In this document: in pieces, positions 47,717-61,527 of the stretch
How positions within the stretch are numbered: the first letter of the stretch is position 1
How the letters are laid out: every line of letters starts with the position of its first letter
DNA from: Gammaproteobacteria bacterium
GTDB lineage: Bacteria > Pseudomonadota > Gammaproteobacteria > Steroidobacterales > Steroidobacteraceae
Reading direction: 5' to 3'
NCBI GenBank assembly: GCA_003164785.1
Contig: PLUE01000039.1
Location: 62,140-126,139, forward strand
DNA length: 64,000 bases
Position numbers and translations under genes: made by a program
The notes under the pieces: model-generated
The model's database searches: none
Told to the model about the DNA's origin: nothing
The model's input: only the letters and a program-made list of their open reading frames with translations

Positions 47717-49214
<1,498 letters not shown>

Positions 49215-49296
49215 AGCCCGGCTCGGGCGCGCCGCCGTCGGCGGACGCCCGGTCGGCGCGCGAACCCTGTATCGCACCGCAGCGGCTCTGACCGCG

Positions 49297-51489
49297 ATGC
49301 TCTGCCTCATGGGTGCCGCCCAGGGGGACCGTCCCTGGTTGGACGTGCACCGCACGCCCGACGAGCGGGCCGCACTCGCCGTCAAGGCCATGACGCTCGA
49401 CGAGAAAATCGCGCTGTTGCACGGACCCATGGCGATGCCCTGGATCACCCCCGACGGCCGACAGATTCAGGTGCCCGCCGCTGCGATCCTCTCGGCCGGC
49501 TTCGTTCCGGGGTTGGCGAGGCTCGGCATACCCGCCCTCTATGAAACGGACGCGAGTCTCGGCGTTGCCAATCCGAACGGAATTCGTCCGGGCGATGTGG
49601 CGACGGCGCTGCCCTCGAGTCTGGTCCTGGCATCGACGTTCGATCCGACCCTCGCCTACCGGGCCGGCGCGATGGTCGGCGCCGAGGCGCATGCCAAGGG
49701 CTTCAATGTGCTGTTGGCCGGCGGAGTCAACCTGGCGCGCGATCCGCGCAACGGCCGCAACTTCGAATATCTGGGTGAGGATCCCCTGCTGGCGGGCATG
49801 TTGGACGGCGAAGCCATTCGCGGCACCCAGGATCAACACGTGATCTCGACGGTCAAGCATTTCGCGTTGAACGCCAACGAGACCAATCGTCAGTATCTGG
49901 ACGCCCGCATCGACCGCAGGGCGCTGCGCGAATCCGACTTGCTGGCGTTCGAGATGGCGATCGAGCGCGGCAAGCCTGGCGCCGTGATGTGCGCCTACAA
50001 CGAGGTGAATGCTGATTACGCCTGCGGCAATCATTGGTTGTTGATCGACGTGCTCAAGGGTGATTGGCGCTATCCGGGCTGGGTGATGTCGGATTGGGGC
50101 GCCGTGCACGGGGCCCTGGACGCGGTGAACGGTCTGGATCAAGAGTCCGGTGAGCAGCTCGACAAGGCGGTGTTCTTCGATGCGCCATTGAAGGCCGCGG
50201 TGCTGGAGGGTCGCATTCCCGCGGCGCGTGTGGACGACATGGTGCGCCGGATCCTGCGGTCCATGTTCGCGGTCGGCATCGACGCGGCCGGCATAGGCGC
50301 GGCCGGCCCAGGCGCGGCCGGCCCAGGCGAACATCCAGCGGTGAAAGTGGACATCGATTACGCGGCGCATCGGGCGCTCGCGCTCGACATCGCGCGCAAA
50401 GGCATCGTGCTGCTCAAGAACGACGCCGACCTGCTGCCGCTCGCCCGCAGCTATAAAAAGATCGCGGTGATCGGCGGTTACGCCAACTCGGGCGTGTTGT
50501 CGGGCGGCGGTTCCGCACAGGTCATCCCCACCGACGGACCGTTCGCGCGCATTCCCACGGGTGGGCTGAAACCGAATTGGATGGACCAGGTGTTCGATCC
50601 TTCCCCACCGTTGGACGCCGTTCAGCGGGCGTCGCCGAACAGCATCGTGGCTTACGACGCGGGTGCGTTGCCGGCGCGCGCCGCGGCTCTGGCCGCCAAC
50701 GCCGACATCGCCATCGTGTTCGTCATCCGCCATGAGATGGAAGGCAGCGACGTCCCGAATCTCGATTTGCCGGAGGGACAGGATGCGCTCATCGACGCGG
50801 TGGCGGCGGCCAACCCGCATACCGTGGTCGTCCTCGAGACCGGTAATCCGGTGTCCATGCCCTGGCTCGGCCGGGTGCCGGTGGTCGTCGCCGCCTGGTA
50901 TCCCGGGCAGGCCGGCGGCCAGGCGATCAGCGACATCCTGTTCGGTGACGTCAACCCGTCAGGCCGGTTGCCCATCAGCTTCCCGCGAGACAGCGCGGAC
51001 CTGGTCAGACCGGCCCTGCCCAATCTGGGCGCCGAGCCGCGCACACCGGTGCATGTCGATTATTCGGAGGGTGCGGATGTCGGGTATCGGTGGTACGCCG
51101 CCCGCGGATCGACACCGCTGTTTGCCTTCGGGTTCGGCATGTCCTATACACGCTTCGACTACCGCGACGTGAAAGTGAGCGGCGGCAAGACCTTGACGGC
51201 GACGTTCGAGGTCCGGAACACCGGCGCCGTCAAGGGTGCCGATGTGCCGCAGGTGTATTTGACCGCGGCCGCCGGCGAGCGCGTGCTGCGGCTGATCGGC
51301 TTTCAACGGGTCGAACTAAATCCGGGCGAGAGTCGTATCATCACGGTGACAGCGGATCCGCGCCTGCTGGGTTACTTCGACGAAGAGCGGAGACAGTGGC
51401 GGGTCAAACCCGGGATCTATCAACTTCGAGTTGGGCGATCCGCGGCCGATTTGGCTCTAGGTGGGGAGGCAGGCTTGCATGGCATTTGA
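49297..51489 (+). CDS. Glycoside hydrolase family 3 beta-glucosidase-like protein
   Basis: 730 aa from ATG 49297. N-terminal GH3 barrel with KHFALNANETNRQ and the nucleophile region GWVMSDWGA (Asp of SDW), then a GH3_C domain (IVLLKNDADLLPL, GSAQVIPTDGPF) and a fibronectin III-like end (GADVPQVYLTA). The real start is uncertain: residues just upstream in frame (RTLYRTAAALTA) continue a signal peptide, yet no ATG/GTG/TTG lies between the purA stop and 49297. A 15-base triple repeat sits at 50281-50326. It overlaps the permease gene by 11 bases. Confidence 0.87.
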   Translation: MLCLMGAAQGDRPWLDVHRTPDERAALAVKAMTLDEKIALLHGPMAMPWITPDGRQIQVPAAAILSAGFVPGLARLGIPALYETDASLGVANPNGIRPGDVATALPSSLVLASTFDPTLAYRAGAMVGAEAHAKGFNVLLAGGVNLARDPRNGRNFEYLGEDPLLAGMLDGEAIRGTQDQHVISTVKHFALNANETNRQYLDARIDRRALRESDLLAFEMAIERGKPGAVMCAYNEVNADYACGNHWLLIDVLKGDWRYPGWVMSDWGAVHGALDAVNGLDQESGEQLDKAVFFDAPLKAAVLEGRIPAARVDDMVRRILRSMFAVGIDAAGIGAAGPGAAGPGEHPAVKVDIDYAAHRALALDIARKGIVLLKNDADLLPLARSYKKIAVIGGYANSGVLSGGGSAQVIPTDGPFARIPTGGLKPNWMDQVFDPSPPLDAVQRASPNSIVAYDAGALPARAAALAANADIAIVFVIRHEMEGSDVPNLDLPEGQDALIDAVAAANPHTVVVLETGNPVSMPWLGRVPVVVAAWYPGQAGGQAISDILFGDVNPSGRLPISFPRDSADLVRPALPNLGAEPRTPVHVDYSEGADVGYRWYAARGSTPLFAFGFGMSYTRFDYRDVKVSGGKTLTATFEVRNTGAVKGADVPQVYLTAAAGERVLRLIGFQRVELNPGESRIITVTADPRLLGYFDEERRQWRVKPGIYQLRVGRSAADLALGGEAGLHGI
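50281..50326 (+). repeat. Three 15-base units (GGCGCGGCCGGCCCA type) in GH3 gene
   Basis: Two exact copies of GGCGCGGCCGGCCCA after a degenerate first copy (ACGCGGCCGGCATAG-like), in phase, encoding repeated Ala-Gly-Pro/Ile-Gly-Ala. It lies in a surface linker between the GH3 barrel and the C-terminal domain and shares the GCGCGGCCGGC core with the repeat at 17081-17110. Confidence 0.8.
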
Positions 51490-52792
51490 CACGATCGGCG
51501 CACCGGCGAGCGCATTGGAGCACCCGGCGTCCGATACGAGCGCGGCATATTCGAAGGACTTGACGGCGTTCGTTTTCGCCTTGTTTTTCGCCTTCGGCGG
51601 CATCACCAGCCTGAATGATGTGCTCATTCCGAAGCTGAAGGCGTTGTTCACGCTGTCGTATGGCGACGTGATGCTGGTGCAATCCGCGTTCTTCGCCGCG
51701 TACTTCATCGTGTCGATACCGGCCGCCGCCCTGGTGCGCCGGATCGGTTACATGCGCTCGGCGTCGGTGGGCCTGCTCACCATGACGGCCGGGTGTCTGT
51801 TGTTCGTGCCTGCCTCGGCGCACGGGATCTTCGGCCTGTTCCTGGTGGCGCTGTTCGTGCTCGCCGCCGGCATCACCACCGTGCAAGTGGTGGCGAATCC
51901 CTTGATTTCGATGCTGGGGCGGGCCGCCACCGCGAGCAGCCGGTTGACCTTCGCGCAAGCCTTCAACTCGCTCGGCACCACGATATTTCCCTATGTGGGA
52001 TCGATCTTGATCCTGGGGTCGTTGGCCACGGTCGATCCCAGCACGCTCAGCGGTGCCGCGCTCGATCAGTTTCGCGGCGTCGAAACCCGCGTGATCGCGC
52101 ACACCTATATCGGTTTGGCGATCGCGCTGGCGGCCCTCGCCGCCGTGGTCTGGGTGCGGCGCAAAGGATTGGCCGAGACGCCGGCGGCGCCGACCCCCGT
52201 TCTGCGCGCCTTCAACTTGTTGACACGACCGCGCTTTGCGTTCGGGACGGCGTGCATATTTCTGTATGTCGGTGGGGAAGTCGCGATTGGATCGATGATC
52301 GTGAGCTATTTGATGCAAGGCTCGGTGTTCGGGGTGGTGGCTGAAGAGGCCGGCAAACACGTGCCGTATTATTGGGGTGGTGCGATGGTGGGGCGCTTCA
52401 TCGGCGCCTATGTTCTGCGCCTGTTCGCTCCCGGCAAGGTCCTGGCCTGCGTCGCCGCGGCCGTCATCACGCTGATACTGATCTCGGCCAATTCGACGGG
52501 CAGCATCGCCGGTTGGGCGTTGCTGTCCATCGGCCTGTTCAATTCCATCATGTTTCCGACGATTTTCTCGCTGGCCAGCGAGGGACTGGGCAAGCGCGCC
52601 GCGGAAGGTTCCGGGGTCATCTGCATGGCGATCGTCGGCGGCGCCATCGTGCCGCTCGTCTGGGGCCGCGCCGCGGATTTTTGGGGCCTGCGTGCGGCGC
52701 TGGCCGTGCCTGCCGCCTGCTATTGCGGTATTCTTTTGTTCGGCTGGTTCGCGCGCCGCCCACTGCTCGACGGCGGCGCCTCAGCCACTTAG
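51479..52792 (+). CDS. MFS sugar permease, FucP/GluP-like
   Basis: 437 aa, 12 hydrophobic helices. From ATG 51479, behind a GGGGAGG ribosome site; GTG 51461 is possible but would remove that site. FGGITSLNDVLIPKLK, then QSAFFAAYFIVSIPAAALVRRIGYMRS and VQVVANPLISMLG are typical of FucP/GluP proton-sugar symporters (fucose, glucose or galactose). With the GH3 enzyme, whose 3' end it overlaps, it probably takes up the sugar released from glycosides. Confidence 0.9.
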   Translation: MAFDTIGAPASALEHPASDTSAAYSKDLTAFVFALFFAFGGITSLNDVLIPKLKALFTLSYGDVMLVQSAFFAAYFIVSIPAAALVRRIGYMRSASVGLLTMTAGCLLFVPASAHGIFGLFLVALFVLAAGITTVQVVANPLISMLGRAATASSRLTFAQAFNSLGTTIFPYVGSILILGSLATVDPSTLSGAALDQFRGVETRVIAHTYIGLAIALAALAAVVWVRRKGLAETPAAPTPVLRAFNLLTRPRFAFGTACIFLYVGGEVAIGSMIVSYLMQGSVFGVVAEEAGKHVPYYWGGAMVGRFIGAYVLRLFAPGKVLACVAAAVITLILISANSTGSIAGWALLSIGLFNSIMFPTIFSLASEGLGKRAAEGSGVICMAIVGGAIVPLVWGRAADFWGLRAALAVPAACYCGILLFGWFARRPLLDGGASAT

Positions 52793-52806
52793 AGTCAGGA
52801 GCGCTC

Positions 52807-54354
52807 ATGGCCGATATTTCCTTGCGAGGTAGCACACGTGCGGCGTTGCCCGGCGCGCGGGAAGTGGCACCGGCCGACCCGACGGAGCGCTTCGAGGTCA
52901 GCGTCATCGTGCGGCGGCGTGCCGCCGAGGCCATGCATTCACGGGCTGCGGCGCTGGCATCCGGCGATCGATCCCAGCGCTGGCTGAGCCGCGAAGAGTT
53001 CGCGCAGTTGCACGGCGCCGCGGAGGCTGATTTTGCGGCGGTGCGCGCCTTTGCCGGCGAGAACGGCCTGGTGGTCGTGCAGGAACACGCGGCCAGGCGC
53101 ACGTTGATTTTGTCCGGCACGGTGGCTCAATTCAGCGCCGCGTTTTCCGTCCAATTGCATCACGTGGAACACGCGGGCGGGACTTATCGCGGACGCACCG
53201 GGGATATTCGACTGCCGGCTGAATTGGCTGCCGTGGTGGAGGCGGTGCTGGGCTTGGACAATCGTCCCCAGGCGAAGCCCCATTTTCGCCTGCGGCCGCC
53301 CGCGAGCGCCGTGGCGGCCGTGTCCTATTCCCCGACTCAGGTCGCCGCGCTGTACGGCTTTCCGGCTGGCGCAGGCGCGGGCGAGTGCGTGGCGCTCATC
53401 GAACTCGGTGGCGGATTTCGTCCGGCCGACCTGACCACGTATTTTACGGGCTTGAAGGTTGGCTCGCCCAAGGTGATCGCGGTCTCCGTCGACCACGCGA
53501 CGAATACGCCCACGGGCGATGGTAATGGTCCGGACGGCGAAGTGATGCTCGACATCGAGGTGGTGGGCTCGATCGCGCCGCAGGCCTCCGTCGCCGTCTA
53601 CTTCGCGCCCAATACCGATGCGGGATTTCTCGATGCCATCACCACGGCCATCCACGACACGATCAACAAGCCGTCGGTGATTTCGATCAGTTGGGGTGGG
53701 CCTGAGTCGTCGTGGACCTCCCAGGCCATGACGGCGATGGACAGCGCCTTCCAGGCGGCCGCGACCTTGGGGCTCACGGTGTGCGTCGCCTCCGGCGACA
53801 GCGGCTCGAGCGACGGAGTGACGGGCGGCGCCGACCACGTCGATTTCCCGGCGTCGAGTTCGTTCGCGCTCGCGTGCGGCGGCACCAGCCTGCAAGCTGG
53901 AGCGACGGCCATCACCAGCGAAACCGTGTGGAACGACGGCAGCAGCGGCGGGGCCAGCGGCGGCGGCGTCAGCACCTTCTTCACACTGCCGAGCTGGCAG
54001 CAGGGACTGAGCGTTCGCGGGACAACGGGGCAGTTCGCCCTGGCCATGCGCGGCGTGCCGGACGTGGCCGGTGATGCCGATCCCGAGACCGGCTACGACG
54101 TGCGGGTCGATGGCGCGGACACCGTCATCGGCGGCACCAGCGCGGTGGCTCCGCTCTGGGCGGCGCTGATCGCGCGCATCAATGGCATCACCGGCAAGCC
54201 GGCCGGGTTCATCAACGCACTGCTGTACCAGAACGCCGGCGCGCTTCGCGATATCACCGCCGGCGGTAACGGGGATTTCGAAGCCGCCCCCGGCTGGGAT
54301 GCCTGCACCGGGCTCGGCAGTCCGAACGGCCCGCCGTTGGAGCGACTCCTCTAG
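52807..54354 (+). CDS. S53 family serine-carboxyl peptidase (kumamolisin-like)
   Basis: 515 aa. An N-terminal Pro-kumamolisin activation domain (about 20-160) precedes the catalytic domain. Catalytic residues are Glu245 and Asp249 (in GEVMLDIE), Asp331 (ASGDSG, oxyanion) and Ser445 (GGTSAVAP); the intervals of 4, 82 and 114 residues equal those of kumamolisin (Glu78, Asp82, Asp164, Ser278). The calcium site (DITAGGNGDFEAAPGW) is at the C-terminus. There is no signal peptide, unusual for a protease expected outside the cell. Starts 14 bases after the permease. Confidence 0.9.
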   Translation: MADISLRGSTRAALPGAREVAPADPTERFEVSVIVRRRAAEAMHSRAAALASGDRSQRWLSREEFAQLHGAAEADFAAVRAFAGENGLVVVQEHAARRTLILSGTVAQFSAAFSVQLHHVEHAGGTYRGRTGDIRLPAELAAVVEAVLGLDNRPQAKPHFRLRPPASAVAAVSYSPTQVAALYGFPAGAGAGECVALIELGGGFRPADLTTYFTGLKVGSPKVIAVSVDHATNTPTGDGNGPDGEVMLDIEVVGSIAPQASVAVYFAPNTDAGFLDAITTAIHDTINKPSVISISWGGPESSWTSQAMTAMDSAFQAAATLGLTVCVASGDSGSSDGVTGGADHVDFPASSSFALACGGTSLQAGATAITSETVWNDGSSGGASGGGVSTFFTLPSWQQGLSVRGTTGQFALAMRGVPDVAGDADPETGYDVRVDGADTVIGGTSAVAPLWAALIARINGITGKPAGFINALLYQNAGALRDITAGGNGDFEAAPGWDACTGLGSPNGPPLERLL

Positions 54355-54366
54355 GCTGATATGGGC

Positions 54367-54531
54367 TTAGTGGACGTGAAAGGTGCCGGGGCCGCCGAAC
54401 AGTCCCAACAAACCGGTGATGATGAGGTAAAGCGCCACGATGTAGTTCAGCAGGCGCGGCATGACCAAGATCAGTATCCCCGCGAGCAGGGCGACCAGCG
54501 GTGCAATACTGAGATTCATGTTCAACGACAT
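54367..54531 (-). CDS. DUF3096-type microprotein
   Basis: 54 aa, start ATG 54531 with an AGGAG site 9 bases upstream. Two hydrophobic helices: residues about 8-24 (SIAPLVALLAGILILVM) and 31-46, joined by PRLLNY, with a GGPGTFHVH tail. The pattern IAPLVALLAGILIL-PRLLNYIVA-YLI-GL-GL matches DUF3096 small membrane proteins. Too short for most gene finders. It follows the 32-aa gene by 9 bases on the same strand, in the transporter operon. Confidence 0.75.
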   Translation of the reverse strand: MSLNMNLSIAPLVALLAGILILVMPRLLNYIVALYLIITGLLGLFGGPGTFHVH

Positions 54532-54540
54532 AGCAAGCTC

Positions 54541-54639
54541 CTACGAGAATAATTTGAGGACGTTTTCCAGGGTTTTCGTGACGCCCCAGGCCAGTGGGGC
54601 GGCGACGACCAGCCAGAGCACGATGAGTCGAGCGGTCAT
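54541..54639 (-). CDS. MFS transporter small-subunit-like microprotein
   Basis: 32 aa, start ATG 54639. One hydrophobic helix (about 5-19: LIVLWLVVAAPLAWG) then a short amphipathic tail (VTKTLENVLKLFS). The stretch PLAWGV-TL is what I recall from small subunits annotated next to oxalate/formate-type MFS transporters. It starts 10 bases after the transporter stop and is followed by the 54-aa gene, so all three should be co-translated. Function as an accessory peptide is inferred from position. Confidence 0.6.
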   Translation of the reverse strand: MTARLIVLWLVVAAPLAWGVTKTLENVLKLFS

Positions 54640-54649
54640 GGGGTGCACC

Positions 54650-56011
54650 TCACTTCTTGCGGGCGGGCGACACGTAATGGTGGCGTTCGTTCACGGAGCG
54701 CATGGCGAGATTGCACAGGAAGCCCAACACCAGGAGCCCGCACATGATGTACATCGTGAAGGAATAGGCCTGCGCCTTGGCCACGCCATGGTCGATCTGG
54801 GACTGACGTATATAGTTGACGAGCACGGGCCCCAGAACGCCCGCCACCGCCCACGCGGTCAGCAAGCGGCCGTGAATCGCGCCCACGTTCATGGTGCCGA
54901 ACATGTCGCGCAGATACGCCGGGATGGTCGCGAATCCGCCGCCGTACATGGAAATGATCACCGCGAACGCGGCGACGAACAGGCCGATGGAACCCAGGTG
55001 CCCCAGTGAGGGCACGGTCGAGTAAAGCGCCACGCCGAGGACAAAGAAAATCGTGTAGGTCGTTCGCCGTCCCAGATAATCGGAGGCGGCGGCCCAGACG
55101 AATCGTCCGCCCATGTTGAACAAACTCAACAGGCCGACGAAGCCGGCGGCGGCGGCCGGTGTGACGCGGCCCGGGAAGATCTCCTGGATCATCGGCGAGG
55201 CCTGCCCGAGCACGCCGATGCCGGCGGTGACGTTCATGCACAGGACGCCCCAGAGCAGCCAGAATTGCGGCGTGCGCCACGCCACTTCGACCAGGACGTC
55301 CGCCTTGGTCACCATCGAGCGCGGTGCCGCCGATCCGGTCCATCCTGCGGGCTTCCAGTCGGCCGCGGGGATGCGCACGGTGATGACTCCAATCATCATG
55401 AACATGAAGTAGATGACGCCCATGGTGACGAAGGTCTCGAGCACGCCGTTGGATGTCGCCGTCTTGAAATGGTCCATGAGCAGCAAAGACAGCGGCGCAG
55501 CGACCAGTGCGCCGCCACCGAAGCCCATGATGGCCATGCCGGTCGCCATACCGGGGCGATCCGGAAACCATTTGATCAATGTGGATACCGGCGAGATATA
55601 GCCGATGCCGAGACCGCAGCCGCCCAGCACGCCGTAACCCAGATACAACAGCGCGATTTGGTGATAGTGCAGGCCGGCCGCCGCGACCATGAACCCGCCA
55701 CCGAAACAGAGCGCCGCCGTGAACATGGAGCGGCGCGGGCCGACACGTTCCACCCAGCGTCCGAACAACGCGGCCGACAGGCCAAGGAGGGCGATCGCGA
55801 TCGAAAATGTCCAGCCCACTTCCGTCAGTTTCCAGTCCTGGGGGGCCGAGTGCGTGATGCCGATCATCCTGGTCAACGGCAGATTGAAGGTCGAAAAGGC
55901 GTACGCTTGTCCGATCGACAAGTGCACCGCGAGGGCGGCTGGTGGGACGATGAAGCGGTTGAACCCAGCCGGGGCCACCGTGTTTTCACGGTCGAAGAAC
56001 GATGCGGTCAT
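54650..56011 (-). CDS. OFA family (oxalate/formate antiporter-like) MFS transporter
   Basis: 453 aa from ATG 56011; 12 hydrophobic helices. N-terminal LSIGQAYAFSTFNLPLTRMIG and the helix-2 loop GRWVERVGPRRSM, then GLGIGYISPVSTLIKWFPDRPGMATGMAIMGFGGGA, are the OFA signature (the GY-x-P-x-x-x-x-x-KWFP-D-R/K-G segment). The family exchanges oxalate/formate or imports monocarboxylates; substrate is not determined. First gene of an operon with the two microproteins. Divergent from the diguanylate cyclase gene. Confidence 0.9.
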   Translation of the reverse strand: MTASFFDRENTVAPAGFNRFIVPPAALAVHLSIGQAYAFSTFNLPLTRMIGITHSAPQDWKLTEVGWTFSIAIALLGLSAALFGRWVERVGPRRSMFTAALCFGGGFMVAAAGLHYHQIALLYLGYGVLGGCGLGIGYISPVSTLIKWFPDRPGMATGMAIMGFGGGALVAAPLSLLLMDHFKTATSNGVLETFVTMGVIYFMFMMIGVITVRIPAADWKPAGWTGSAAPRSMVTKADVLVEVAWRTPQFWLLWGVLCMNVTAGIGVLGQASPMIQEIFPGRVTPAAAAGFVGLLSLFNMGGRFVWAAASDYLGRRTTYTIFFVLGVALYSTVPSLGHLGSIGLFVAAFAVIISMYGGGFATIPAYLRDMFGTMNVGAIHGRLLTAWAVAGVLGPVLVNYIRQSQIDHGVAKAQAYSFTMYIMCGLLVLGFLCNLAMRSVNERHHYVSPARKK

Positions 56012-56343
56012 GAGTAAGCGGCAGCCTTGTAGGCTCAAATGTTATTGCAGCCAATATGCGCCACCGCGCTGCAACTTGCCAGAGTCACCGATCCTTCATC
56101 GACTCGCGTCATCGACTCACGTCGGGCATTCGTGCGCCGCCGCACGGACCCGCGGTCGGAACTCCTATAAAGTCCGCGCACAATCAACAAGCTTGCTGCG
56201 AGTCCCACGTCGGGCTCGACGATCACGGATGACAGGCGTGGGTGGACGTCTTCCATTTGTCATAACTTAAATTGCTGGGATTCTACAATCGTGACCTCCT
56301 CAGTCGATCGCCGGCTCGCAAGGCCGTAGTGTTGTCGTTACTC
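56012..56343. other. Divergent gap between OFA transporter and diguanylate cyclase
   Basis: 332 bases with no gene. It has a tandem pair of 13-base near-identical repeats (TCATCGACTCGCG / TCATCGACTCACG) at 56096-56121 and a TATAAAG box near 56166; promoters for both flanking genes must lie here. Confidence 0.5.
56096..56121. repeat. Tandem TCATCGACTC(G/A)CG x2
   Basis: Two adjacent 13-base units differing at one base, in the divergent gap about 85-110 bases upstream of the transporter start. May be a binding site for a regulator or chance. Confidence 0.5.
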
Positions 56344-58275
56344 ATGACCCTATTCAGGCATTCGGGCCGCATCAGCTGGGTGCTCCTCGCGTGGTTCGTC
56401 ATGCCGCCCGCGGCGTCGGCGATGTGCATCCCCAGCCCGGACCCGGCCATTCGGTCGATCCAGAGCCAGGTACCGAAGGACGCCGCCAAGGCGTTGACCC
56501 TGATTCGCGCCAAACTGGACGCCCAAAGCCACGAAACGGGGGCCGGGTCGATCGCATTCCTGGCGGGATTGTATGCGGTGCAGGCGGAGGCGTACGAGAT
56601 CCTGGAATTGTCGGCCGCGACGCGTACCGCGGCCACCGAGGGGCTGAAACTCGCGACCGAGGTGCACGATCCGGTCCATCTGCAATTGTTGTCGGCGTAT
56701 GCCGAAAGTGCGTTCGGGGGCGCGGCGATCGCGGCCGCCATCACCACGATCGAAGCCGCGCGTCTCGCGCAGGCGCCGGGTTCCGCGGCCGGAACCTGCC
56801 TGCTCATCACCCGCGGGCTGTTGGAAAATCGCGAGGATCGGGCGGATCTGGCCATCGTCACGCTGACGCAGGCCTACCGTGCCACGCTGTCCTCGACGCA
56901 GGCCGAGGCGCGCATGTTCGCCGCGTCGGTGCTCTCGATCGTGATGCGCAGCATGGGCGACTATCCGCAGGCGCTGGCGCTCAACAAGCAACAAATCGAT
57001 TGGGACGTGGCCCACCACGCGTATCTCAGTCTGTCGGTGTCGCATTTCATGCGCGGACAGATCCTCAAGCTGATGGGCAGTTATCCGGACGCCGTCGTCG
57101 AGTATTTCGAGGCCCGCAAGCTGAGCGTGCAGTTGGGCGACGAGCAGGGCGTCGCCTACGCCGATCAGGGGATCTGCGGCGCGCACGTCGAACTCGATGA
57201 GTTCGAGGCCGCGCAGCAGGAATGCGCCGGCGCCATGCAGATCTTCTCGGCCACTCATGCCGAAGCCGCGGTGAAAGAGGTCCGTGCGCTGCTGGCGCGG
57301 ATCGACCTGCGCCAGGGTCGGCCCGGGGCCGCGCTCGTCACCTTGAACGGTGTCCTGGATCAGGATGGCGCAGACCTGCCGCCGCTGCACGTTCCTGAGT
57401 TGTTCGAATTGCGCGCGCGCGCGAACGCGGCGATGCACAAATATCGGAACGCCTACAACGATTTGCACGAATATATCGAGCGGCACGCGGCGGCCAATGC
57501 CGCCGAGCGCTATCGGCAGGATGGTGCCCTACGGGCCCGGTTCGAGACGGATCGGGAGATCGAACGCAATGCCTCGCTCCAGCGCGAGCTGGCGCTGTCC
57601 CGTGAGCAGTCGCAGCGGCAGGCGCAACAGCTGCGACTGAACGCGATCGTGGTGGTGGTCGGCGTCGGCGTCATCGCGCTGCTGATTTACTTTCTGGTGG
57701 CGAATTTCCGTTATCGTCAGCAGCTGCAAAAACTGGCGAGCCAGGATGGCTTGACGGGATTGCCGAATCGTCGGCGCACCGCCGAACTCGCGCTGGCTGC
57801 GATGCAGAACGCCCGCGCCGCGCGACTTCCGCTGGCCGTCGCCATCATCGACATGGATCATTTCAAGGTCATCAACGATCGCTGCGGCCATGCTGCCGGC
57901 GATCATGTACTCAGGGAATTCGCACGGGCGGGCGGCGCGGCGCTGCACGACACCGATATCCTGGGGCGCTGGGGCGGCGAGGAGTTTCTGCTGGTGATGC
58001 CCGGCGCGACGCTCGAGGTCGCCATCGCGAACCTCGAACGCCTGCGGACCCTGGTGTTCGGGATCAAGTTGCCGGCGTCCGGCGCGGGGCTGCGCGTCTC
58101 GGTGAGCGCGGGCGTGGCGCCCTTGGAATCGAACGTCAAATCGCTGGATGACCTGATCGCCCGTGCCGATAGTGCCCTCTACACGGCCAAGAATGACGGG
58201 CGGGACCTCGTGCGGGTCGCGGACCCGGCCTACGTGACCGGCGCACACGCGATACGGCGGGTGCAACGGCAGTAG
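56344..58275 (+). CDS. Diguanylate cyclase with TPR-like sensor
   Basis: 643 aa from ATG 56344, which places a signal peptide (residues 1-26, cleavage after ASA) at the front; a TTG at 56272 is the alternative. A periplasmic helical-repeat (TPR-like) sensor of about 400 residues follows, then a coiled coil (ERNASLQRELALSREQ), one membrane helix (about 438-458) and a GGDEF domain with active GGEEF (544-548). The inhibitory I-site would be RxxD at 535-538 but reads H-D-T-D, so product feedback may be lost. Makes c-di-GMP. Confidence 0.92.
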   Translation: MTLFRHSGRISWVLLAWFVMPPAASAMCIPSPDPAIRSIQSQVPKDAAKALTLIRAKLDAQSHETGAGSIAFLAGLYAVQAEAYEILELSAATRTAATEGLKLATEVHDPVHLQLLSAYAESAFGGAAIAAAITTIEAARLAQAPGSAAGTCLLITRGLLENREDRADLAIVTLTQAYRATLSSTQAEARMFAASVLSIVMRSMGDYPQALALNKQQIDWDVAHHAYLSLSVSHFMRGQILKLMGSYPDAVVEYFEARKLSVQLGDEQGVAYADQGICGAHVELDEFEAAQQECAGAMQIFSATHAEAAVKEVRALLARIDLRQGRPGAALVTLNGVLDQDGADLPPLHVPELFELRARANAAMHKYRNAYNDLHEYIERHAAANAAERYRQDGALRARFETDREIERNASLQRELALSREQSQRQAQQLRLNAIVVVVGVGVIALLIYFLVANFRYRQQLQKLASQDGLTGLPNRRRTAELALAAMQNARAARLPLAVAIIDMDHFKVINDRCGHAAGDHVLREFARAGGAALHDTDILGRWGGEEFLLVMPGATLEVAIANLERLRTLVFGIKLPASGAGLRVSVSAGVAPLESNVKSLDDLIARADSALYTAKNDGRDLVRVADPAYVTGAHAIRRVQRQ

Positions 58276-58346
58276 GGTCCGGCGACAGGTGTCCATGGTT
58301 CTCAAGGGGCACCCGTAAGTGATTGAAAACAATAGAATCTTATGTA

Positions 58347-58431
58347 TGGTGCCCAGGAGAGGACTCGAACCTCCACGAATTGCTCCACTGGTACCTGAAA
58401 CCAGCGCGTCTACCAGTTCCGCCACCTGGGC
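58347..58431 (-). tRNA. tRNA-Leu (anticodon CAG)
   Basis: Class II tRNA, 85 bases including encoded CCA. Acceptor GCCCAGG pairs with CCTGGGC, anticodon loop TTCAGGT gives CAG, the variable arm is a long hairpin (TGGAGCAATTCGTGG in part) and the T-loop GTTCGAGTC is standard. CTG is the dominant leucine codon in GC-rich genomes, fitting the window. It sits at the end of the GGDEF gene on the opposite strand. Confidence 0.97.
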
Positions 58432-58462
58432 AAGAGATGGGTCGCCGAGTGCGAGGCGCAGG

Positions 58463-58491
58463 AATTTACGCACCCGACCTCGCGTTGTCAA
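58463..58491 (-). promoter_or_regulatory. Strong sigma-70 promoter for tRNA-Leu
   Basis: Minus strand: consensus -35 TTGACA (58491-58486), exact 17-base spacer, -10 TAAATT (58468-58463), then a GC-rich discriminator (CCTGCGCC), as in stringently controlled stable-RNA promoters. Transcription would start about 25 bases before the tRNA. Confidence 0.8.
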
Positions 58492-59058
58492 TGAGTTCCC
58501 GTCGGACGCGGCGTTGCCGTCCACGATCGTCAGCACCGTCTGGGCGTGGCCGGTGCACGTGGGTGCACCTGACCGTCGATGAGTCCTGGCGTGATCGGGC
58601 GTCCCTTCCTGTGTTGTAACCGCAACGTCGGTTCCAGAGCCCTGCAACGCAGCGGCGGCATCGCATCGTCGTCGCCTCCGTGAATTTTGAAAATATTTTT
58701 ACGTGGTTTGGATAATCGGCTGCCTATGTGTCGAGCGCACCATCTTCGATCGCAAGGTTCGTCGCCGTCGTCGGGCGGTGAGATTTTATTCAAGGAATTA
58801 GCGTTGTTTGCCGCGTGAAACCCCGGCACTAAATTGGCGCAAAAAAATCATGGGAAACGGGAAAACGCACCATCGCCGTGCAAGCCCGCGTGTGGATGGT
58901 CCGATTTCGTTTTTCGGAACCAACGGGTCGTGAAACACTGCTTTACCGACGCCTCCGCGGGTGGTGACATCCGCGCAACACTGCTGGACAGTACGGCGAA
59001 GTTAAGCTAATTAACCAGGGCGATTCTGCTCGATAAAACATCAAGTGAGGGATGCTCA
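58492..59058. other. 567-base gap upstream of TonB receptor
   Basis: No credible gene; minus frames here are Arg-rich chance readings. The part at 58680-58860 is notably AT-rich and could hold regulatory sites. A candidate promoter lies at 59011-59039. Confidence 0.5.
59011..59039 (+). promoter_or_regulatory. Candidate promoter of TonB receptor
   Basis: TTAACC, 17 bases, then TAAAAC, 20 bases before the start codon. Both hexamers are imperfect; a GTGAGGG ribosome site follows. If real, the leader is very short. Confidence 0.35.
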
Positions 59059-61527
59059 ATGAAGATGCGTGTACGCCCGACTGGGATTGCGTCTGCGAAT
59101 TCGCGACGTCGAGTCTGTCAAATCGGAACCGTGTCGACGCTGAGCGCCGCGGTGCTGTCGGCGCTCTACGGGACGGCCTACGCCGCAGATGACAATGCGC
59201 TGCAGGAGGTCGTCGTGACGGCCACGCGGCGTGCGGTGTCCGCACAGGATCTGCCCATCAGCATCACCGCCGTCAGCGGCGCGGCGTTGGACGAGGCGGG
59301 CATCAGCGACCTGAGCAGCCTCGCGCATTCGATGGCGGGCGTGAACGTGACCGACAAGGGGCCCTTCGGGGGCGTCAACGGCGCGACGCTCATCATCCGC
59401 GGCCTGAACAGTGAAGCGACCGGTGGTCAGGTGGCGCTCGCAACGCCCATCGTCCCGCCGGTGGCGACGTATGTCGACGACACGGCGCTGTTCGTGAACC
59501 TCCGGTTGCAGGATCTGGACCATGTGGAGATCCTGCGCGGTCCGCAGGGCACGCTGTATGGCTCCGGATCTCTCGGCGGCACCATCCGTTTCGTGCAGAA
59601 CGCTCCCGATCCGACGGCCTTCGATGCGAAAATCGAAGCGGGCATGAGCAAGACCGATCACACCCACGCCACGAATCAGGACATCAGCGGCATGCTGAAC
59701 CTGCCGCTGTCCGACACCTTGGCCGTGAGATTGAACGCGAGCTGGACCGACGAGGCGGGTTTCATCAACCAGCCCAATCTGTACGTCCTCGACTCCTCCG
59801 GCGCACCGGTCGCGTCCCAGCCGGGAAACCTGCTGAGCCCGCCGGAAACCTATTCGAAGGATGGGACGAATTCGTACGGGTATCGGACCGCGCGCATTTC
59901 GACGCTATGGAAGCCGAGCGACGAATTCAAGGCGCAGCTCTCCTATCACTACCAGGTGTCCACCGCGAACGGGTTTCCGTATGCGGCGCCCGAGTACGGC
60001 GTGCAAAACCTGTCGTCCGCCGACCACACGCAGGCGACGACGCACGACAAGGTCGATCTGTTCGCCCTCACGCTGGAAGGCGATCTTGGCTTTGCGACGC
60101 TGACGTCGAACACCTCGTATGCGCATCACGTGAATCAGTCCAGCAGCGATCTGACCAACCTATATTCCTATTTCCCGTTCTATCCCGCCTATTACGGCGC
60201 GAATCCGCGTGTCCTCGTCACGGGCCACGACGAGCTCGACGACAAGCCCTGGGCGCAGGAGCTGCGTCTCGCATCGAAGTCCGGGGGCACCTTCGACTGG
60301 GTGGGCGGGCTGTTCTTCAAGAACCAGACCACCATCATCAACGAGCATGAGTTCTATCCCGGGTATTCGGACTACTTCAATGCCTGCGTTCCCGCCTATG
60401 GGGTCGGCGACGGCGTGTCCGCGTCGCAATGCGGTTTGGGAGAGGCCTACACGCCGGGACCCACGCAATATGTCGATGGAATTCCTCTCATCAAGGATCA
60501 GGCGTACATCGGTGACTTCGAAACGCACTTCAAGGACATGGCCGCATTCGGCGAGCTGACGGCGCACGTGACGTCCAATTGGAGCGTCACCGGCGGCACG
60601 CGGGTGTTCAAACAGACCTTGAGCCAGTCGCAGCAGACGGGTCTGCTGTTCGATGCGTTGATCCCGCCGCCGGCACCCATCGCCAACGCGAGCCTGAGCG
60701 ATTCGTGGCGCAAGGCTTTGTGGAAGTTCAACACCGCCTACCAGCTGGATCCGACCAACCTGGTGTACGCCACCTGGTCGCAGGGTTTCCGACGCGGCAG
60801 CGTCAACGCCTTGCCGCCGAGCGAGCTGGGCGGCTCCTATGTGACCGATCCGCGACTCTACAAGGTGGAACCCGACAAGGCCGACAACTACGAGATCGGC
60901 GCCAAGGGAACCCTCGCCAACCGGTTTCGTTATTCGGCCGCCATCTACGACATCCAGTGGCACAACGTCCAGGAGGGTGCACAGCTGACACCGTTGGTGT
61001 TGCCGGCGGGCATCAACGTGGGCAACGCGTACAGCCGCGGCTTCGAGACCGAACTGTATTGGAAGATCACCGATCATCTGTCGGCCACGGTGGAATACAC
61101 CTACGATCTGACCAAGCTCACGTCGTATTCGGCCGTCGCGTTGCTGGGCCTGTCCGTGCCGCCACCGCCGCCCGGCGGCCCGCTTCCCGGGACGCCGAAG
61201 AACAGCGCCGCGGTGGGTCTCGAGTACGGGCACCTTGCCTTCGCGGGCGGCGAGATGCTGTTCGCGATCAACGCGCACTATCAAAGCGTGGTCATTCCCG
61301 CGCTGTCGGCGACCATTCCCACGGTGGCGGGCTACACCATGGAGGACGCGCGCGCCAGCTACACGCTGTCGCATTGGATGGGCACGCTGTATGTCGACAA
61401 TTTGAGCAACCGCGTGGGCATCAACTCGTATTCCGATCCGGCCAACTACGGCAGCAATTACGAGGCCATCGTCTCCAGGCCGCGCACCATCGGATTCACG
61501 GTGGGCTATTCGTTCAAGGGCTGGTGA
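59059..61527 (+). CDS. TonB-dependent outer-membrane receptor
   Basis: 822 aa. Long signal peptide (about 1-42, ending AYA), a TonB box at LQEVVVTATRR, then the plug (LPISITAVSGAALDEAGI, ATLIIRGLNSEATGG, VEILRGPQGTLYGSGSLGGTIRFVQNAPD) and a 22-strand-type barrel ending in GFTVGYSFKGW with the usual aromatic C-terminus. It belongs to the large group found in Nevskiales/Sphingomonads that often import hydrophobic or aromatic compounds. Substrate unknown; the following oxygenase genes suggest an aromatic one. Terminated by a strong hairpin. Confidence 0.93.
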   Translation: MKMRVRPTGIASANSRRRVCQIGTVSTLSAAVLSALYGTAYAADDNALQEVVVTATRRAVSAQDLPISITAVSGAALDEAGISDLSSLAHSMAGVNVTDKGPFGGVNGATLIIRGLNSEATGGQVALATPIVPPVATYVDDTALFVNLRLQDLDHVEILRGPQGTLYGSGSLGGTIRFVQNAPDPTAFDAKIEAGMSKTDHTHATNQDISGMLNLPLSDTLAVRLNASWTDEAGFINQPNLYVLDSSGAPVASQPGNLLSPPETYSKDGTNSYGYRTARISTLWKPSDEFKAQLSYHYQVSTANGFPYAAPEYGVQNLSSADHTQATTHDKVDLFALTLEGDLGFATLTSNTSYAHHVNQSSSDLTNLYSYFPFYPAYYGANPRVLVTGHDELDDKPWAQELRLASKSGGTFDWVGGLFFKNQTTIINEHEFYPGYSDYFNACVPAYGVGDGVSASQCGLGEAYTPGPTQYVDGIPLIKDQAYIGDFETHFKDMAAFGELTAHVTSNWSVTGGTRVFKQTLSQSQQTGLLFDALIPPPAPIANASLSDSWRKALWKFNTAYQLDPTNLVYATWSQGFRRGSVNALPPSELGGSYVTDPRLYKVEPDKADNYEIGAKGTLANRFRYSAAIYDIQWHNVQEGAQLTPLVLPAGINVGNAYSRGFETELYWKITDHLSATVEYTYDLTKLTSYSAVALLGLSVPPPPPGGPLPGTPKNSAAVGLEYGHLAFAGGEMLFAINAHYQSVVIPALSATIPTVAGYTMEDARASYTLSHWMGTLYVDNLSNRVGINSYSDPANYGSNYEAIVSRPRTIGFTVGYSFKGW

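Follow-up and report, generated by a model that had tools for sequence, protein, structure and literature searches.

An SfMCT/OxlT-like MFS carrier gene near-obligately linked to that of a 32-residue single-helix protein, with a DUF3096 neighbour in one genus

Organization of the locus and evidence for the small frames

The window, i.e. the whole stretch of 64,000 nucleotides that was analysed, carries three consecutive genes on its minus strand. The first encodes an MFS transporter of 453 residues belonging to the SfMCT/OxlT-like monocarboxylate clade (54650..56011, stop included, with its ATG at 56011; NCBIfam NF049980, Pfam MFS_1); the second encodes a single-helix protein of 32 residues, catalogued as a small subunit (MFS_OXA_tail_dom, hereafter the tail; 54541..54639, stop included; NCBIfam NF047966); and the third a DUF3096 protein of 54 residues, a lineage-specific neighbour (54367..54531, stop included; Pfam PF11295). 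The stop codon of the transporter is followed after 10 nt by the 32-residue frame and, after a further 9 nt, by the 54-residue frame, the start of which (54531) is preceded by gtAGGAGcttgctATG, with an AGGAG motif read from the sequence at 54538..54542 on the minus strand. These coordinates and gaps, as well as the good AGGAG site ahead of the second small frame, agree with what the earlier note had described. A scan of the locus for promoters and terminators returned no terminator-like site and two promoter-like sites, neither of them persuasive.

Both small proteins match established families. The 32-residue protein scores 43.3 bits against NF047966, 'MFS transporter small subunit' (cut-off 24; model positions 1-30 of 31), and we found no difference between it and that family. 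The 54-residue protein scores 63.8 bits against PF11295 (cut-off 23.3; positions 1-36 of 37) and has, as read from its sequence, two hydrophobic stretches, consistent with its earlier description as a DUF3096-type protein. The description of the two as overlooked microproteins holds in part: the frames are real, but both families were already in the catalogues, the first as an NCBI model and the second in Pfam. The source genome (75 contigs, 6.45% contamination) has one match to each small family, both at this locus.

Comparison of ten three-gene loci of the genus, the window included, reveals that the tail is 32 residues long in all ten and that the DUF3096 protein varies between 51 and 54 residues. 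Third codon positions hold most of the differences: in the tail the values for positions 1, 2 and 3 are 0.228, 0.127 and 0.528, and in a 40-codon core of DUF3096 they are 0.231, 0.032 and 0.441. Of the 45 locus pairs, 24 were usable for the tail, with a median dN/dS of 0.12, and 44 for DUF3096, with a median of 0.11; the DUF3096 gene is thus under purifying selection.

Carrier family and putative substrate

The carrier barely passes the NCBIfam model for the SfMCT L-lactate transporter (NF049980; 322.6 bits, cut-off 320), whereas its score against the OFA model for oxalate/formate antiport (TIGR00890) is 178.6 bits for a cut-off of 374.85; the name 'OFA transporter', used in the earlier note, is in this respect a loose label. 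Among eight relatives scanned with NF049980, three pass (L152, L107 and L119) and five fail (L183, L097, L117, L170 and L155). By sequence, the relatives of the transporter in the PDB are SfMCT (6g9x) and OxlT (8hpj).

Substrate-site residues were matched by counting along alignments to SfMCT and OxlT, and their conservation was assessed over the 92 rows of the transporter tree described below. The substrate site of SfMCT comprises Y119, N276, R280, Y331 and F335, as set out in an excerpt of PMC6573034; these correspond to Y138, N299, R303, Y356 and F360 of the window's carrier and are present in 92/92 rows. The basic pair R272 and K355 of OxlT is conserved in the OFA family and essential to oxalate transport (PMC10070484); its first member is kept as R303, while the position of K355 is occupied by W387 in all 92 rows. 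The retention of the five SfMCT site residues, together with the replacement of the OxlT lysine by tryptophan, makes a small monocarboxylate more likely than oxalate as the substrate. The two acidic proton-site residues of SfMCT are only half kept, which speaks against a full SfMCT likeness: D257 corresponds to E277 in the window (Glu in 84 and Asp in 8 of 92 rows) and D378 to Q403 (Asp in 7 of 92 rows).

Formate is probably a substrate in many of the relatives, a guess from the genes that lie beside their carriers. With a loose test, formate dehydrogenase (FDH)-type genes were found within 1500 nt of the carrier at 16 of 80 loci and at none of 29 control loci, the controls being centred on DUF3096. 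At ten of these loci one match was compared with the family models; the best model was Fdh-alpha for L111, L154 and L156 (partial pieces, below the full-length cut-off), FdhD for L138 and FDH gamma for L134 (both above cut-off), FdhF/YdeP-like proteins for L164 and L170, and NuoF-like proteins for L133, L165 and L172. On a stricter reading 10 of the 80 loci remain, i.e. L111, L154, L156, L138 and L134, along with L137, L153, L165, L167 and L174, which were kept on the basis of FDH subunit matches of at least 55% identity. FDH genes also lie beside the carrier in two of four annotated plasmid stretches inspected; none was seen beside the window's transporter. The presence of FDH in the genus was considered as evidence on the substrate and set aside as uninformative, FDH-alpha matches occurring in 23/23 genomes, with or without the transporter.

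Linkage of the tail to the carrier

Within a sample of 23 genomes of the genus, the source genome included, the transporter (called at E <= 1e-60) occurs in 15 genomes at 16 loci, one genome (G015) having both of the types found: 11 loci are of the window's type (type A) and five of a more distant type. All 16 loci have the tail. It is a separate frame of 32-33 residues after the transporter at all 11 window-type loci, two of which (in G009 and G020) are broken over two contigs, and it is fused to the carrier at the five distant-type loci, which have no adjacent DUF3096 gene; the fused tail of G005 scores 22.6 bits, below the family cut-off of 24. At 8 of the 11 window-type loci, one of them as judged from its listed start, the start of the tail overlaps the stop of the transporter by 4 nt. 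A profile search found no tail match in the eight genus genomes that have no transporter.

The linkage also holds when approached from the tail: of the tail loci of the first search set, the window among them, 24/24 have a transporter adjoining or fused, as do 14/14 new tail loci from a sample of the class, one locus in each set scoring below the family cut-off. As judged from the family name and these loci, the family is thus one whose members adjoin, or are fused to, an OFA/SfMCT-type MFS carrier, and it occurs in both separate and fused form; L044 is one locus where the tail is fused. Among named genomes, where at least 585 relatives were confirmed and the best 80 analysed, the tail is present at 78 loci, separate at 69 (including L147, where the frame is ambiguous, and L166, where the transporter start is unassigned) and fused at nine. 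By database record these 80 span Pseudomonadota, Planctomycetota, Bacteroidota, Acidobacteriota, Gemmatimonadota and Verrucomicrobiota, many being binned genomes. The tail is absent from the flanking DNA examined at L151 and L175, and is therefore not strictly essential.

Two loci have a further tail match some 2 kb beyond the split pair. It lies within a long open frame, of 583 residues in L110 and 606 in L112, and is possibly part of a tandem second transporter with a fused tail.

The DUF3096 neighbour

The DUF3096 gene follows the tail, 9-82 nt on, at 10 of the 11 window-type loci of the genus. The exception, G009 (a genome 81% complete), keeps transporter and tail and has no DUF3096 gene. 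Across the 23 genus genomes, DUF3096 is present in 10 of the 11 that have a type-A transporter and in two of the 12 that lack one (Fisher p 0.0006, uncorrected for shared descent and for the linkage itself).

Further afield the association was not seen. Among the 80 best named relatives (from at least 585), DUF3096 adjoins the carrier-tail pair only in L105, which is from the same genus and groups within the genus clade on the transporter tree. In the class sample of 321 genomes, the source genome included, the tail occurs in 17 genomes (above cut-off in 16) and DUF3096 in 40; six have both families, and the two are adjacent in the window's own genome (G000) only. Conversely, 38 of 38 DUF3096 loci away from the trio (nine from the first search, three of these in the same genus, and 29 from the class sample) have no such transporter within flanks of up to 1.5 kb; for 13 further DUF3096 places in the class sample, contig and position alone were compared with those of tail matches. 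Clustering of the frames around the 38 loci, with representatives read, gave no candidate partner, the clusters being mainly frames that overlap or lie antisense to DUF3096 itself. As far as sampled, it is in this genus only that a PF11295 protein is placed behind the transporter pair. A DUF3096 gene of Rhodopseudomonas palustris is lowered by ppGpp, according to an extract of PMC13343836.

It may nevertheless be that the three proteins form one complex, in which DUF3096 would serve, in this genus, as a third subunit or as a modulator of transport. The position of its gene 9-82 nt after the tail at 10 of 11 type-A loci, the purifying selection on DUF3096 (dN/dS 0.11) and its co-occurrence with the carrier in the genus are all in keeping with such an arrangement, but G009 retains the pair without it, it is missing from 79 of the 80 best relatives (at least 585 being confirmed), and neither the 38 loci elsewhere nor the six class genomes, apart from G000, place it beside a carrier. 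We consider a three-chain complex unlikely. A role for DUF3096 as a general subunit was rejected on linkage, given its absence beside the carriers of most relatives sampled. The earlier note had proposed that loss of the small frames in relatives that keep the transporter would count against its reading and that the same trio should be sought beside other carriers; for DUF3096 such loss is what was found, at G009 and in 79 of the best 80 relatives, and the search for the trio, and with it any linkage of all three genes beyond close relatives, turned up none outside the genus, either in these 80 (from at least 585) or in the 321-genome sample.

Fusion history and structure of the tail

A tree was made from the carrier columns of 92 transporters, comprising 79 of the 80 named relatives, 12 genus loci and the window, with L166, the partial genus loci L096, L100, L103 and L104, and L094 (a duplicate of L105) left out. 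On this quick tree, for which support is by SH-aLRT only, the split and fused states of 90 of the 92 rows (two tail-less rows excluded) need two changes, both forced by starred branches, a count that carries no direction.

AlphaFold2 models of two natural fusions confidently predict the tail as one extra helix beyond the 12-helix core. In L152 (mean pLDDT 89.3, pTM 0.88) the tail helix spans residues 462-491, with blocks at pLDDT 88-94 after a linker below 50; in L183 (mean pLDDT 90.4, pTM 0.89) it spans residues 519-551, with blocks at 95, 95 and 86 after a linker near 68. VIA-align comparisons of the L152 model reveal the same fold as both SfMCT (PDB 6g9x, 6hcl, 6zgr; Z 42.8, rmsd 2.4 Å over 362 residues) and OxlT, the oxalate:formate antiporter (PDB 8hpj, 8hpk; Z 44.3, rmsd 2.3 Å over 384 residues). 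The aligned ranges to these and the other structures shown end by residue 442, before the tail helix, which is no demonstration of a new fold. Searches of solved structures with the two small proteins gave no sequence match at E <= 1.

Discussion

MFS carriers are usually regarded as self-sufficient single chains. Our preferred reading, to which we assign a probability of roughly 0.8, is that the carrier and the 32-residue tail are two chains of one machine, with the DUF3096 protein as an operon neighbour that this machine would not require. The three genes would be carried on one transcript, and translation of carrier and tail may be coupled, as the start-stop overlaps at 8 of 11 loci suggest. 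A 12-helix MFS monocarboxylate carrier would thus be joined 1:1 by a near-obligate 13th membrane helix from a separate chain, a helix which in some lineages is fused onto the C terminus of the carrier itself. The tail helix would most likely pack against the carrier's outer surface and act in its folding, stability or placement rather than in carriage of the substrate, in the manner of the basigin/embigin partners of animal monocarboxylate transporters. DUF3096, in turn, would be a small membrane protein acquired by the operon in this genus, co-expressed and dispensable. The earlier note had taken both small proteins for accessory subunits. For the tail such a role is well supported by its near-obligate linkage and the natural fusions, together with the overlapping starts, but the corresponding case for DUF3096, adjacent in this genus only, is weak.

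A different possibility is conditional regulation: the 32-residue helix would not be a constitutive subunit but would act on the carrier as AcrZ does on AcrB or MgtU on MgtB. Bacteria do have small proteins with a modulating or protective action on transporters, as an excerpt of PMC10710835 describes, and the two relatives without a tail (L151 and L175) would be accommodated; however, the natural fusions fix the tail at one per carrier and the start-stop overlaps suggest coupled synthesis, and we regard conditional regulation as distinctly unlikely. That the two small frames are open merely by chance merits almost no credence, for although short frames are common nearby (111 of at least 25 residues overlap 50000-60000), family matches above cut-off, the codon-position pattern, the kept lengths and the fusions all contradict it.

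Among known systems, the tail-less deposited chains of SfMCT and OxlT, together with the L-lactate uptake mediated by SfMCT, speak against the two-chain reading of carrier and tail. SfMCT has five substrate-site residues in common with the window's carrier, but differs in having a shorter deposited chain without a tail, and in both acidic positions (D257 and D378). OxlT likewise shares R272 with the carrier but not its essential K355, and its deposited chain is again shorter and without a tail. Uptake of L-lactate by bacteria that express SfMCT is described in an excerpt of PMC6573034. Human MCT1 with basigin or embigin is a same-fold monocarboxylate carrier with a separate membrane partner, a comparison of how the systems may work, with no kinship claimed between the partners; the bacterial tail differs in having some 30-50 residues and in being sometimes fused. 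The relevant section of PMC6573034 describes basigin and embigin as serving trafficking, seemingly unneeded for transport itself. AcrZ, MgtU and MgtS are likewise small membrane partners of a transporter, but their carriers are of other families and the portion of PMC10710835 available to us mentions no natural fusion. A bolder form of our reading would be that a large, multi-phylum clade of MFS monocarboxylate carriers departs from the textbook single chain of 12 helices and depends on a separate microprotein for a 13th, as a bacterial counterpart of basigin/embigin that has been fused or split more than once, with DUF3096 as a third chain in one genus. We hold this wider proposal to be doubtful.

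The carrier-tail pair itself is real and, across the loci sampled, near-obligate, and its family already has a name; the trio was seen in one genus only. The literature searched contained no study of the tail family. Where such a carrier is expressed from its large gene alone, a part of it may be missing. Since the helix is near-obligate as a separate chain in a clade that spans several phyla and also has natural fusions, the clade offers a simple test of accessory-helix function.

Annotation and surroundings of the locus

The earlier claim that standard gene calling misses the small frames is only partly true. In three of four annotated plasmid records inspected (50 were found) the tail is listed as a gene, as 'oxalate:formate antiporter' (42 residues) in two and as a hypothetical protein (45 residues) in one; the fourth has the frame but it is missing from the distributed, incomplete gene table. 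Gene calling can thus find the tail but names it badly.

Adjoining the transporter and divergent from it is a GGDEF-domain gene (56272-58275, plus strand), beyond which a tRNA-Leu gene (anticodon cag; 58347-58431, minus strand) underlies several listed open frames, which are hence unlikely to be genes. On the other side, a convergent gene with a pro-kumamolisin activation domain, of the sedolisin protease type, is listed at 52372-54354 on the plus strand; the 5' part of its frame overlaps an MFS carrier frame, so that its true start is probably further in. At 48931-52792, also on the plus strand, another MFS carrier gene comes immediately after one for a glycosyl hydrolase of family 3, and the two perhaps serve sugar cleavage and uptake as a pair.
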